Positions 4,415 to 9,328 of a stretch of 10,105 nt of DNA are shown here, in pieces. Under the pieces are notes generated by a model. The model saw only the letters and a program-made list of their open reading frames with translations, had not been told where the DNA came from and did not search any database. Position numbers and translations under genes: made by a program. How positions within the stretch are numbered: position 1 is the stretch's first letter; each line of letters starts with the position of its first letter. Where the stretch lies: the NCBI GenBank assembly GCA_023230265.1, contig JALNXR010000055.1, positions 1 through 10,105 of the forward strand, read 5' to 3'. This stretch comes from Bacteroidales bacterium (lineage in GTDB: Bacteria; Bacteroidota; Bacteroidia; Bacteroidales; UBA932).

Positions 4415-4885
4415 TTACTTCAAATACCTTTCAATGTGAGTTCCGGGAGGTAAAAAAAGGGTGGCATCACCTCCGTTAAGCAAAACATCCCTGACAACTG
4501 TGGATGATATAAAAGAACAACTGGGAGAGGAGGGAATAAATACAGTGATGATTTCTGGCTCCATCCGGGAATTTGCCTGAGCTACGACGCTCTCCATCTC
4601 AAAGTCTGTGGTTGTTCTCAACCCCCTTACAATAAAATTTACATTGAGATCCCTGCAAAGATCCACTGTCAGCCCGGTATAGCTGCATATCTCAACATTG
4701 TCGGTTTCCCGGGTAGCATTCTCAATAATCTCAACTCTTTCTTCCACAGAAAAAAGACTCTTCTTAAGCACATTGTTCCCAACTGCAATTATCACTTTAT
4801 CGAACAATTTGAGAGAAGAATATAGAACATCCAGGTGCCCCAGAGTGAAGGGATCAAAAGAACCAGGAAATATTGCCGTTTTCAT
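4415..4885 (-). CDS. coaD: Phosphopantetheine adenylyltransferase
   Basis: Converts 4'-phosphopantetheine and ATP to dephospho-CoA, the penultimate step of coenzyme A synthesis, in the cytosol. With the start chosen here the protein has 156 residues, normal for the family. It opens with the nucleotidyltransferase motif GSFDPFTLGH, where T14-x-G-H17 is the HxGH-type signature. RGLR (87-90) matches the E. coli RGLR substrate-binding loop, and ISSTVVRD (126-133) is the second nucleotide-binding signature. The frame extends upstream to an ATG at 4924, which would add 13 polar residues (MSSPAKSKSENLN) and overlap dapF by 29 bp. I prefer the ATG at 4885 because CoaD proteins begin right at this MKxAxFPGSFDP segment and it leaves a 10-bp gap after dapF. 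The upstream sequence is AT-rich with no Shine-Dalgarno. Confidence 0.95.
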   Translation of the reverse strand: MKTAIFPGSFDPFTLGHLDVLYSSLKLFDKVIIAVGNNVLKKSLFSVEERVEIIENATRETDNVEICSYTGLTVDLCRDLNVNFIVRGLRTTTDFEMESVVAQANSRMEPEIITVFIPSSPSCSFISSTVVRDVLLNGGDATLFLPPGTHIERYLK

Positions 4886-4895
4886 ATTTAAATTT

Positions 4896-5744
4896 TCAGA
4901 TTTGGACTTCGCAGGAGAAGACATATGTGGCAGGTCCGGTCAGTTTGATTCCTGTGTAATTATCATCTCCCTTAAAAGTGAATTTAACCTGTAGAATATC
5001 CTTGAGAGTCTGTACTCTGACAATACTTTCTGCAGAAGAGGAAACAGCAGCATAACCAGTATTGAAAGAAGTCTTTTTAAAGAGTTTATGGAATGCAATA
5101 GCAGAAGCTGTCACCCCGGTGCCACAGGCATAGGTTTCATCCTCAACACCTCTTTCGTATGTTCTCACAGCAATATCTGCATCGTCGCTGATAGAAGAAC
5201 GGCCCCATCCTCCCTGAACAAAATTCACATTGATGCCTTCCGGAAAATGGGGATGGTTTCTCCACAGTTTACCTTGTCCGAGGACATCGTAATCCTTGAG
5301 CTTTTCTACAAAAATTACAAGATGAGGAGATCCGGTGTTTATTATAAGACTTTTTGGAGAGTACTCCCGTATGTTTGTAACATCAATCATCCCGAGTTCA
5401 ACAATTGATTCAATATCTGAATATTTGTGAATCAGTGCATTGTGAATGCCGTCAACAGCTTCAAAATTAAAATTGGTTATCCCCATCCTGGCGGCAAATG
5501 CTACCAGACACCGTCCTCCATTTCCGCACATAGTCCCTTCTCCTCCGTCGGAGTTAAAATACCGCATGGTAAAAGAGAGCTTTTCGCTCTTTTCCAATAA
5601 CATGAGCCCGTCAGCGCCAATTCCGAACCTCCTGTCGCAAAGGTTATTTATCATCTTTTTGGTTAGAGAAATATCCCCTTTCCGGTTGTCAAAAATCAAA
5701 AAATCATTTCCGGCTCCCTGGTATTTATATGCCTTATGAATCAT
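4896..5744 (-). CDS. dapF: Diaminopimelate epimerase
   Basis: Interconverts LL- and meso-diaminopimelate without a cofactor, supplying meso-DAP for peptidoglycan and lysine. The protein is 282 residues, close to the usual 270-285. The N-terminal YQGAGNDFLIFDN segment matches the family start. The two catalytic cysteines are present: C73 in MCGNGGRC and C207 in YACGTG, each in its substrate-phosphate-like binding loop. FGIGADGLML (40-49) and the C-terminal LTGPA segment (268-272) are also typical. The ATG overlaps the 3' end of the lpxB-ogt fusion by 11 bp, indicating translational coupling. An AGGAGA directly abuts the ATG; the spacing is too short for a normal Shine-Dalgarno. The 3' end precedes coaD by 10 bp. 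Confidence 0.97.
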   Translation of the reverse strand: MIHKAYKYQGAGNDFLIFDNRKGDISLTKKMINNLCDRRFGIGADGLMLLEKSEKLSFTMRYFNSDGGEGTMCGNGGRCLVAFAARMGITNFNFEAVDGIHNALIHKYSDIESIVELGMIDVTNIREYSPKSLIINTGSPHLVIFVEKLKDYDVLGQGKLWRNHPHFPEGINVNFVQGGWGRSSISDDADIAVRTYERGVEDETYACGTGVTASAIAFHKLFKKTSFNTGYAAVSSSAESIVRVQTLKDILQVKFTFKGDDNYTGIKLTGPATYVFSCEVQI

Positions 5745-6300
5745 TCTCCTGTTCCTTTATTGTTTTTGTAAAAAGATTATAGTCCGAATTTAGATAAGCC
5801 TTTTCCAGATCCAGAAGATAGCTCTTCTTTTCAAGACCGATGTTAAAGCCTGTAAGCTTGTTATTTGAACCTATCACTCTGTGGCATGGTACAACAATTA
5901 GCAGAGGGTTCATTTTGCATGCATTGCCCACAGCTCTGCTGGCATCTGCTGTCTCAACAGTTGCTGCAATCTCTCCATAGCTTTTTACATGACCATAAGG
6001 GATTTTCCGAAGTTCTTCCCATACCCTTCTCTGGAATTCTGTTCCTCTGAGTTTAATGGGAATATCAAAGTCCCGTCTCTTTTCGCTAAAGTATTCGTCG
6101 AGTTGTTTTACAGCTTCAATCAGTACGCCTGGTTCCTGATCTGTCAAAGATGATATCTTTTTTTTGCGTAATCTCCCCTTGTCAGAAATTGGTCCGGTTA
6201 CCTCTTTTTCAGAAGGGGGGAGATAAGAGATCTCCAGCAGAGCTTCATCGTCACTTATCAATTCCAGGGTTCCCATAGGACTTTTGTACAGTCTGGAGAA
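5734..6300 (-). other. Ogt/MGMT domain at the C-terminus of the LpxB fusion
   Basis: This part of the fusion (residues 379-566) is a full-length methylated-DNA-protein cysteine S-methyltransferase. It begins RLYKSPMGTLELIS, matching the start of free-standing Ogt proteins. The DNA-binding and active-site half contains FQRRVWEELRKIPYG (467-481), the nucleotide-flipping Tyr in SYGEIA (Y486), and the 'arginine finger' R500 in SRAVGNA. It also has M508-N-P, the suicide cysteine C517 in PCHRVIG, and E544. The C517/H518/E544 spacing equals human C145/H146/E172, so all catalytic elements look intact. About 20 residues after E544 (to ENDS) are a non-conserved tail. The family transfers the alkyl group from O6-alkylguanine irreversibly to the cysteine. 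Confidence 0.93.
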
Positions 6301-7434
6301 TCTCCTGTTCTGCTTTATAGTTTTAAGTTCACTTATAATTGAAGCAGCAATCTTTTCAGATGCTCCGCTGTTTCCCAACATTTGTCTTAGCTTTACAAAC
6401 TTCTGCTTCATTCTTGCACTTACATCGGGACTGAGAAGCCTTTTGAGCTCTTTAACGAGATTGTCAACGGTGCAATCATTCTGTAGAAGCTCTTTTACTA
6501 CCTCCTTGCCGAAAATAAGGTTTGTCAGGGCTACGAATTTCACCTTAATCAGCTTTTTAACAATAAGGGATGATATGGTGTTTGTCCTGTAGCAGACTGT
6601 ATTGGGTGAGTCAAGCAGTGCTGCTTCCAGACTTGCAGTACCGGAGCAGACAACGGAAGCCTGCGAATATTTAAGTATAGAATAAGTCTGCCCGAAGATA
6701 AGCTTTATATCTATTCCCTGCAGGTATTTGAAGTAATCCTTTTCTGACATTGAGGGGGCACCTGCCAGTAAAAACTGATAATCGGGAAAATGGGAGGGAA
6801 GCTCTCTGTAAAGAGGCATGAGCTTATTGATTTCACTCTCCCTGCTCCCGGCCAGAAGGGCAATTACAGGTCTTTCATCCAGTTTGTTTACCCTAAAGAA
6901 CTCCTCTTTACCCGGAGTCTGGCTGTTCTCCAGTACTATACTGTCAAGGAGAGGATTCCCAAAATAGTGAACCTTGTGTCCTTTTTTACGGTAGAATTCC
7001 GATTCAAATGGAAAAATCACATATATACGGGAGGAGAAAGCTGTCAGTTTTTTAATTCTCCACCCTTTCCACGCCCACACCGTAGGCGGAATATAATAGA
7101 ATACAGGGATACCCAATCCGGCTGCAAATTTGGATATTCTAAAGTTAAATCCGGGGAAATCGACCGGAATAACCACATCGGGACGGAATTCTTTAATATC
7201 CTCTTTGCATAACCTGATGTACTTTAAAAGTTTGGGGAGTTTGGATAAAACCTCTGTAAAGCCCATTGCAGTGATCTCCCTGTAGTGTTGTACCATCTCC
7301 CCTTTGAGTGATGCCATTCTGTCACCACCCCAGAAGCGGATCTGTGCATCAGGGTCTTTTTTTAGCAGATACTTCATCAGGTTACTGCCGTGCAGATCGC
7401 CTGATGCTTCGCCGGAAATGATGTAATATTTCAT
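5734..7434 (-). CDS. lpxB: LpxB-Ogt fusion: lipid-A-disaccharide synthase joined to O6-alkylguanine-DNA alkyltransferase
   Basis: 566 residues in one open frame. Residues 1 to about 375 are LpxB (GT19, GT-B fold), which joins UDP-2,3-diacylglucosamine and lipid X to give the lipid A disaccharide at the inner membrane. Visible motifs are GEASGDLHG (8-16), D92 in VDFPGF, IPPTVWAW (115-122), GNPLLD (159-164), R198 in LAGSRESEI and SGTASLEAAL (264-273). D92 and R198 correspond to residues known to be essential in H. influenzae LpxB (D98, R201). Residues about 379-545 are a complete Ogt/MGMT protein, described in its own entry. LpxB alone is normally 375-390 residues, so the fusion begins right where LpxB should stop. 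The start overlaps the surE stop by 4 bp (ATGA), and the 3' end overlaps dapF by 11 bp. surE next to lpxB is common in Bacteroidota; the Ogt extension is not something I recognise from LpxB proteins. Confidence 0.93.
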   Translation of the reverse strand: MKYYIISGEASGDLHGSNLMKYLLKKDPDAQIRFWGGDRMASLKGEMVQHYREITAMGFTEVLSKLPKLLKYIRLCKEDIKEFRPDVVIPVDFPGFNFRISKFAAGLGIPVFYYIPPTVWAWKGWRIKKLTAFSSRIYVIFPFESEFYRKKGHKVHYFGNPLLDSIVLENSQTPGKEEFFRVNKLDERPVIALLAGSRESEINKLMPLYRELPSHFPDYQFLLAGAPSMSEKDYFKYLQGIDIKLIFGQTYSILKYSQASVVCSGTASLEAALLDSPNTVCYRTNTISSLIVKKLIKVKFVALTNLIFGKEVVKELLQNDCTVDNLVKELKRLLSPDVSARMKQKFVKLRQMLGNSGASEKIAASIISELKTIKQNRRFSRLYKSPMGTLELISDDEALLEISYLPPSEKEVTGPISDKGRLRKKKISSLTDQEPGVLIEAVKQLDEYFSEKRRDFDIPIKLRGTEFQRRVWEELRKIPYGHVKSYGEIAATVETADASRAVGNACKMNPLLIVVPCHRVIGSNNKLTGFNIGLEKKSYLLDLEKAYLNSDYNLFTKTIKEQENDS

Positions 7435-8207
7435 AACTTCCAGATTGATTCCAGTCTTTGTAACTCATCGTAGTCCGTAGTGTCTATCTTGTGCGGCACT
7501 ATACTTACATAACCCATCTCCATAACATTGTGATCAGATTGCAAATTGTCAGGTTCCAGGTTAAAAAACTCACCGGTCATCCAGTAGTAGTTAAAACCAT
7601 AAGGATCGGTTCTCTCTTCAAACTCTTTGATCCATTTCCCTTTTCCCTGGTGTGAGAACCGGATTCCCTTAGCCTCCCCGGGTTTTAGTGCAGGGAAGTT
7701 TACGTTTAGAAAAACATCTGCTTTGACCGGATTTTTGAAGAAATTATCCAATATTATTTTACCGTATACTTCAACTATGGAGAAATCTGCTTCCGGATTG
7801 TGTGAACAGAGAGAGAAACCCAGAGAGGGTATCCCGTAAACTGTACCCTCTGCAGCTGCACCCAGAGTGCCGGAGTAGAGAGAGGCAACTGATGCATTGG
7901 AGCCATGGTTTATACCTGAGATAAGAAGGTCAGGCAAGGAACCTTTATAAAGCTGGTTCATTGCCATTTTGACGCAGTCAGCAGGAGTTCCGGTGCAGGC
8001 ATAGACCCTCAGACCTTTCTCGTTTTTGAGCTCAGTGAGCCGCAGGGGTTTTCCTATGGTAAGAGCAGCCGACATACCGGACTGGGCTTCTAAGGGTGCA
8101 ACTACGGTTACATCTCCGTATGATGTCATCATTGCAGTTAGTACAGAAATACCCTTTGATTTAATGCCGTCATCATTTGTTATCAGAATGCTCCTTCTTT
8201 TTTCCAT
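7431..8207 (-). CDS. surE: 5'/3'-nucleotidase SurE
   Basis: Metal-dependent phosphatase acting on nucleoside 5'- and 3'-monophosphates, cytosolic. With the chosen start it has 258 residues, standard for SurE. The N-terminal ILITNDDG carries the metal ligands D12 and D13; S43 in AQSGMS and N100 in SGINHGSN complete the metal site. YSGTLGAAAEG (111-121) is a conserved signature. The frame extends to an ATG at 8264, but the extra 19 residues (MLSLFLTFVKDRNINIFNL) lie before the conserved N-terminus. That start would also lie upstream of the best promoter box at 8240-8247, so I use the ATG at 8207 (MEKRRSILITNDDG). It is first in the minus-strand operon and overlaps lpxB by ATGA. Confidence 0.95.
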   Translation of the reverse strand: MEKRRSILITNDDGIKSKGISVLTAMMTSYGDVTVVAPLEAQSGMSAALTIGKPLRLTELKNEKGLRVYACTGTPADCVKMAMNQLYKGSLPDLLISGINHGSNASVASLYSGTLGAAAEGTVYGIPSLGFSLCSHNPEADFSIVEVYGKIILDNFFKNPVKADVFLNVNFPALKPGEAKGIRFSHQGKGKWIKEFEERTDPYGFNYYWMTGEFFNLEPDNLQSDHNVMEMGYVSIVPHKIDTTDYDELQRLESIWKL

Positions 8208-8239
8208 AAGATTAAAAATATTAATATTTCTATCTTTTA

Positions 8240-8247
8240 CAAAAGTA
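8240..8247 (-). promoter_or_regulatory. Candidate Bacteroidota -7 box for the surE operon
   Basis: TACTTTTG on the minus strand fits the Bacteroidota -7 consensus TAnnTTTG and ends 32 bp before the surE ATG at 8207. I do not see a -33 TTTG at the right spacing; the nearest TTTG is 14 bp upstream. A second match (TAACTTTG, minus strand, 8291-8298) lies farther up and is an alternative. Confidence 0.4.
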
Positions 8248-8281
8248 AGAAAAAGTGAAAGCAAAGTTGCATAAAAGTGTG

Positions 8282-8308: not shown

Positions 8309-9328
<1,020 letters not shown>

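Follow-up and report, generated by a model that had tools for sequence, protein, structure and literature searches.

Why would an essential enzyme of lipid A synthesis carry a DNA-repair protein at its C-terminus? The question is raised by a stretch of 10,105 nucleotides from a Bacteroidales bacterium (contig JALNXR010000055.1 of GenBank assembly GCA_023230265.1), referred to here as the window, in which a single unbroken open reading frame on the minus strand (5734-7434, ATG start, 566 amino acids) encodes LpxB, a lipid-A-disaccharide synthase, and Ogt, an O6-alkylguanine-DNA alkyltransferase of the MGMT type, in one frame. A preliminary description of this DNA had proposed such a 566-residue LpxB-Ogt frame, which the open reading frame itself and the Pfam and NCBIfam profiles bear out. 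The answer that we regard as probable is that one old fusion gave rise to one two-enzyme protein, which would link the repair of alkylated DNA to the synthesis of lipid A, an essential pathway.

The fused gene and its two halves

The LpxB half (residues 1-373; 6316-7434, minus strand) is a lipid-A-disaccharide synthase of the GT-B fold. It is identified by the Pfam LpxB profile (PF02684, residues 4-349, 271 bits, above the curated cut-off), by the NCBIfam lpxB equivalog TIGR00215 (residues 5-366, 246.9 bits against a cut-off of 190.25), and by alignment over residues 5-367 to Escherichia coli LpxB (5w8s), the nearest solved chain by sequence. The Ogt/MGMT half (residues 379-566; 5737-6300, minus strand) contains Methyltransf_1N (PF02870, residues 381-462, 36.3 bits against a curated cut-off of 21) and DNA_binding_1 (PF01035, residues 466-545, 107.7 bits against a curated cut-off of 27); the NCBIfam ogt model TIGR00589 matches residues 465-544 above its cut-off, and the closest solved chain is that of Mycobacterium tuberculosis OGT (4wxc, over residues 433-555). 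The acceptor cysteine, C517, lies in a PCHRV motif and is encoded at 5884-5886 (minus strand). Judged by sequence, the equivalog score and the catalytic and uridine diphosphate (UDP)-contact residues place the first half in the LpxB family, and the two domains, the acceptor motif and the helper residues place the second half among the Ogt/MGMT proteins. No regulator or sensor domain was found in a Pfam scan of the fusion protein, and with Ada_Zn_binding absent from it the protein does not belong to Ada. The top matches of a fold search include LpxB and OGT chains; this search was set aside, as the LpxB superposition had a root-mean-square deviation of ~21 Å and other GT-B chains scored nearly as high. 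The large deviation is perhaps caused by a C-terminally swapped LpxB chain in the crystal.

Distribution of the fusion

Proteins were searched for by their score against Ogt alone, while the length of the entire fusion governed which candidates were admitted; there were 1402 matches, 120 of which were listed. Among these 120, both LpxB and the MGMT DNA-binding domain are present in 106, and 104 are at least 500 residues long. The fusion protein of the window itself occurs on 4 contigs, and both domains are present in 105 other entries of the listing. The source names of these relatives point to Bacteroidota and, where they are finer, to Bacteroidales or Rikenellaceae; named examples are Bacteroidetes bacterium GWF2_40_14, Rikenellaceae bacterium, HGW-Bacteroidetes-10 and -14, and Bacteroidales bacterium STF1_254. 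Full-length fusions from 104 database proteins and 21 genome loci, some of which are possibly the same genes, were aligned (125 in all), and clustering at 72% identity gives 29 groups. Since the same architecture recurs in most of the listed entries and across 29 groups, chance is excluded as its cause. The preliminary description had allowed for a stop or frameshift at the junction, or for a lone artefact among relatives with separate genes; neither is borne out, since many relatives carry the fusion in one frame.

The fusion was also sought in 398 genomes from the Bacteroidota family to which the genome of locus L001 (G001) belongs. A full-length fusion is present in 32 of them, 22 forming a near group (50-70% identity to the window) and 10 a far group (37-40%). 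Three more family genomes have the fusion in pieces: it is spread across contigs in G016 and G109, and in G141 another frame holds part of LpxB. In a sample of 395 genomes of the class, the only full-length match among those listed is in G001; because this listing reaches down to ~332 bits and the weakest family fusion scores 373 bits, a fusion of either group should have shown. As far as these samples go, the fusion looks confined to one family, and to part of it. None of 72,556 plasmid records had one place covering 80% of the query.

Conserved residues and selection

At the level of sequence, both active sites are intact and under selection. In the LpxB half, D92, R198, T266, E270, and N305 are each present in 125/125 fusions; mapped via 5w8s they correspond to E. 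coli D98, R201, T277, E281, and N316, and S197 (E. coli S200) is invariant across 75 aligned sequences. The catalytic and UDP-contact roles of the E. coli residues D98, S200, R201, T277, E281, and N316 are those given in excerpts of a published account (PMC5785501). In the Ogt half, P516, C517, H518, R519, E544, N509, R500, and Y486 are likewise each found in 125/125 fusions, and with them every residue that the preliminary description had listed as present (the Cys, His, and Glu, the Arg finger, and the flipping Tyr). We take the Asn, the Arg finger (R500), and the flipping Tyr (Y486) to have their usual MGMT roles. The alkyltransferase-like (ATL) proteins are not known to carry the acceptor Cys of the PCHR motif. 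The roles of the His and Glu of the MGMT triad follow an excerpted review (PMC10779285).

From a set of 22 coding sequences the 22 closest pairs were taken, and the ratio of nonsynonymous to synonymous substitution (dN/dS) was estimated for them by the Nei-Gojobori method. In the 12 pairs that were computable in both halves, dN/dS is 0.037-0.109 for LpxB and 0.022-0.092 for Ogt. The nearest pair of the window, with locus L047, gives 0.059 for LpxB and is saturated for Ogt.

The junction between the halves

The junction (residues 367-386; 6277-6336, minus strand) is poorly conserved in sequence and fixed in length. The unfused LpxB sequences used for comparison comprise 42 rows (28 labelled family and 14 class, with the truncated row L096 left out), and they end 3 to 15 residues past the position equivalent to residue 366, which argues that ogt was joined almost at the natural end of LpxB, as the preliminary description had maintained. 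The spacing from A363 to G388 is 26 residues in 125/125 fusions, in the near and far groups alike. When 534 segments of 20 residues were scanned across the fusion alignment for length variability, 36 matched or exceeded the junction in sequence variability; of these, 33 change length, and the other 3, which are invariant in length, start at 365-367 and are the junction itself. In an AlphaFold2 model of one single chain (mean predicted local distance difference test score (pLDDT) 85, predicted template modeling score (pTM) 0.76), the last LpxB helix (358-376) passes almost straight into the first Ogt strand (379-385); Ogt residues 410-431 are poorly defined in this model. With its fixed length, the junction suggests that the two domains keep a defined arrangement and are not joined by a floppy tether.

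Copy number and the proposed two-enzyme protein

Whole-genome counts come from the genomes of relatives and not from that of the window. In 24/24 fused genomes, PF01035 matches exactly once, inside the fusion; in 11 further fused genomes it matches once in 10 and twice in G610. The preliminary description had raised the matter of a separate ogt elsewhere in the genome, and by this Pfam profile search the fusion is the sole MGMT domain in 34/35 fused genomes. Similarly, PF02684 has a single match in 33/35 fused genomes, and in G016 it is found in two nearly abutting pieces. Among 26 unfused relatives, there are no MGMT matches in 4, one in 17, and 2 to 5 in 5 genomes. LpxK, the sole further Lpx gene searched, is present in 24/24 fused relatives. 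Ada_Zn_binding matches in 0/24 fused genomes and in 6/14 control genomes.

The course of events that best fits these observations is the following. A single old event in one Bacteroidota lineage would have placed ogt at the 3′-end of lpxB, within a surE-lpxB operon, and the fused gene would be expressed as a single chain of 64 kDa in which both enzymes work. The LpxB half would form the lipid A disaccharide, and the Ogt half would move the alkyl group from O6-alkylguanine onto C517 once and then be spent, so that its supply would depend on new synthesis. Because the fusion is nearly always the sole MGMT and a search of 24 genomes found no Ada sensor, the capacity to repair O6-alkylguanine is probably constitutive, set by translation of an essential envelope gene and thereby coupled to growth. 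The suggestion in the preliminary description of a neutral read-through of adjacent genes that stayed functional comes close to this explanation.

Origin of the fusion

In a tree of SurE and GapA, one branch sets the 22 fused rows apart, and no unfused row falls among them. The near and far groups also share the junction length, and one origin is therefore favored over two, as the simpler reading of the sequences. A half-way state, with lpxB and ogt separate and adjacent, was looked for as well and was not found: ogt stands beside lpxB in none of 29 unfused surE-lpxB loci and 12 further loci, some of them incomplete and ending at contig ends, and lpxB, surE, dapF, and dnaN are found in none of 18 unfused ogt neighborhoods (17 genomes, ~3 kb per side or less). 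Pairwise identities of the two halves are correlated with r 0.222 in the near group (325 pairs) and r 0.650 when the far group is included (406 pairs); being weak within the near group, this correlation was not used as support.

Gene neighborhood

The genes of the window run surE - lpxB::ogt - dapF - coaD - a thioredoxin-like gene - a UbiD-family gene, with gapA divergent. The upstream gene surE (7431-8264, minus strand; PF01975) overlaps the lpxB start by 4 bases at its end, and the downstream gene dapF (4896-5744, minus strand; PF01678, TIGR00652) overlaps the end of the fusion by 11 bases; it is followed by coaD (4415-4924, minus strand; TIGR01510). The divergent neighbor of surE is gapA (8324-9328, plus strand; PF00044, PF02800). 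Translation of surE probably begins 19 codons after the listed TTG, as an in-frame ATG ahead of a KRRSILITNDDG-like sequence matches what we take to be the usual SurE start. In all fused loci that reach far enough, surE is directly upstream of the fusion. Among 29 unfused lpxB loci, gapA is divergent in 19 and dapF lies directly behind lpxB in 11. An apparent SurE-LpxB fusion in locus L138 is merely an overlong upstream start.

In the far fused group (L057-L064), a gene of 374 residues and another gene lie 3′ of the fusion in place of dapF-coaD. In L057 these two genes are dnaN and an ExoX-like exonuclease gene, and the fusion there stands beside replication and repair genes.

Other fusions in the same family

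A second C-terminal fusion of LpxB, with the [FeFe]-hydrogenase maturase HydG, is found in frame in two genomes of the same family, G062 and G142 (loci L139, 2780-5503, plus strand, and L140, 1080-3806, minus strand). The HydG part, which is complete in L139, has no Met at its start. In G758, LpxB lies within an open frame of 918 residues, which by its length may be a third LpxB-HydG fusion. The C-terminus of LpxB thus seems able to carry large partners.

Among the unfused relatives, some Ogt matches in L097, L098, L102, L103, L106, and L107 lie in stop-to-stop frames of 321-367 residues. In the Ogt tree these frames group with Ogt-GNAT proteins (P0111-P0113, P0118-P0120), another type of MGMT fusion in the same family.

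Weighing the explanations

Several observations weigh against the explanation by one old, two-enzyme fusion. The fused genomes that underlie the sole-copy counts are partly metagenome-assembled genomes whose completeness is not stated. The LpxB of G109 consists of two overlapping partial pieces, and a second copy there is possible. A Bacteroides control is also without Ada_Zn_binding, and the absence of that domain is not special to the fused group. An invariant length is frequent throughout the protein (368/534 segments, mostly well-conserved stretches), and the fixed length of the junction could stem partly from shared ancestry. As for selection, 10/22 pairs are saturated at synonymous sites (dS) in at least one half, and among the 12 pairs used several have dS >2. 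With regard to a single origin, the quick LpxB tree requires two changes of state, the near and far fused groups stand apart in the quick Ogt tree, and in the SurE+GapA tree the branch that unites the fused rows has a support of just 34. Constraining all fused sequences to stand together gave a higher likelihood in both trees and was not rejected (LpxB p 0.786; Ogt p 0.866), and two fusion events are still conceivable. A small contig of G610 (C234:112-351) provides the only extra MGMT match among the 35 fused genomes, and it too counts on this side; it may be either contamination or a real second gene.

The link between the halves could itself be useful, either by placing Ogt at the inner membrane or because alkylation of C517 would unfold the Ogt half, lowering or altering LpxB and slowing envelope growth. 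A hold on the repair protein at the membrane and an effect of C517 alkylation on LpxB level had also been raised as possibilities in the preliminary description. The constancy of the junction length while its sequence drifts, the modeled passage of an LpxB helix into an Ogt strand, and the fused set of the SurE+GapA tree, free of unfused rows, all fit this proposal, and alkylated OGTs are described as destabilized in an archaeon and in humans in excerpts of one source (PMC5751216). However, two genomes of this family, read at the DNA level, bear the unrelated HydG at the LpxB C-terminus, which indicates that such a fusion can arise without a repair link; as LpxB has been extended by a partner with no obvious connection to it, caution is called for in seeking a functional reason for LpxB-Ogt. 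We consider functional coupling of this kind unlikely. A more specific version, in which the rigid junction would fix the sole domain for O6-alkylguanine repair to an LpxB dimer located at the inner membrane, and alkylation of C517 would alter LpxB stability or activity such that alkylation damage slows lipid A synthesis and growth, is doubtful to a greater degree.

It is also unlikely that the gene has two products, whose halves would work apart after cleavage of the chain or after an internal start for Ogt. Met is found at position 366 in 121/125 fusions, compared with 28/42 unfused LpxB rows (21/28 family rows and 7/14 class rows), and somewhere within 367-386 in 68/125 fusions. Yet Met366 is already common in unfused LpxB and may therefore not have arisen as a start codon, the residue of the window at this position is Ile, its frame lacks ATG, GTG, and TTG codons from residue 353 to 387, and a fixed junction length is ill-suited to a disposable linker. 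An internal start for a free Ogt is accordingly rejected for the window and, less firmly, for the other fusions, where such starts are unlikely. That the Ogt half now serves as a module without a role in repair, for instance a DNA-binding anchor or a stabilizer of LpxB, might be considered because its partner has no known role on DNA; the invariance of the acceptor Cys and of the His, Asn, Arg, Tyr, and Glu in 125/125 fusions, and the status of the fusion as sole MGMT in nearly all fused genomes, make this very improbable. An assembly or sequencing artefact joining neighboring genes could appeal to the fact that the whole-genome evidence comes from relatives, but it is already refuted by the recurrence of the window protein on several contigs, by the further database entries with both domains, and by the one-frame fusions of the family genomes, and it can for practical purposes be dismissed. 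The favored explanation is still that of a single fused protein retaining both enzymes.

Significance and comparison with known systems

The source names shown for full-length fusions read 'lipid-A-disaccharide synthase'; the MGMT domain, nearly always the sole one in this lineage, is thus easily overlooked, and an annotation might count these genomes as MGMT-free. A suicide repair protein on an essential envelope enzyme is also an unusual natural test of the fate of a partner once the repair half is spent, and the fixed junction together with the near sole-copy status makes a functional link directly testable. No description of an LpxB-Ogt fusion was found in the open-access literature searched, most subscription papers lying outside its coverage. 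MGMT fusions are known as a kind; LpxB as a partner is new within the literature searched.

Relative to known LpxB proteins (GT19; E. coli 5W8N, 5W8S, and 5W8X), the fusion keeps the full domain, the TIGR00215 equivalog match, the catalytic residues, and the place after surE, but has a C-terminal Ogt domain in place of the normal end. Relative to Ogt/MGMT/AGT proteins (M. tuberculosis OGT 4BHB, human MGMT), it has both subdomains, the PCHRV motif, and the helper residues; unlike a free-standing Ogt, the fused Ogt starts directly after the last LpxB helix and, in the window, without a start codon of its own. Natural multi-domain MGMTs with other partners, PF00730 or GNAT (PF13302/PF00583), also occur among the matches listed, and these Ogt-PF00730 and Ogt-GNAT proteins do not belong to the near LpxB-Ogt clade of the Ogt tree. 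Ada combines MGMT with an AraC-type regulator and Ada_Zn_binding. It is likewise an MGMT within a larger chain, whereas LpxB-Ogt is without a regulator or sensor domain. The AGT-EndoV and ATL-EndoV fusions of archaea, and AGT-2 of Caenorhabditis elegans, as given in the excerpted review (PMC10779285), are also fused alkyltransferases, but there an endonuclease or a histone-like domain is the partner, and here a lipid A enzyme.

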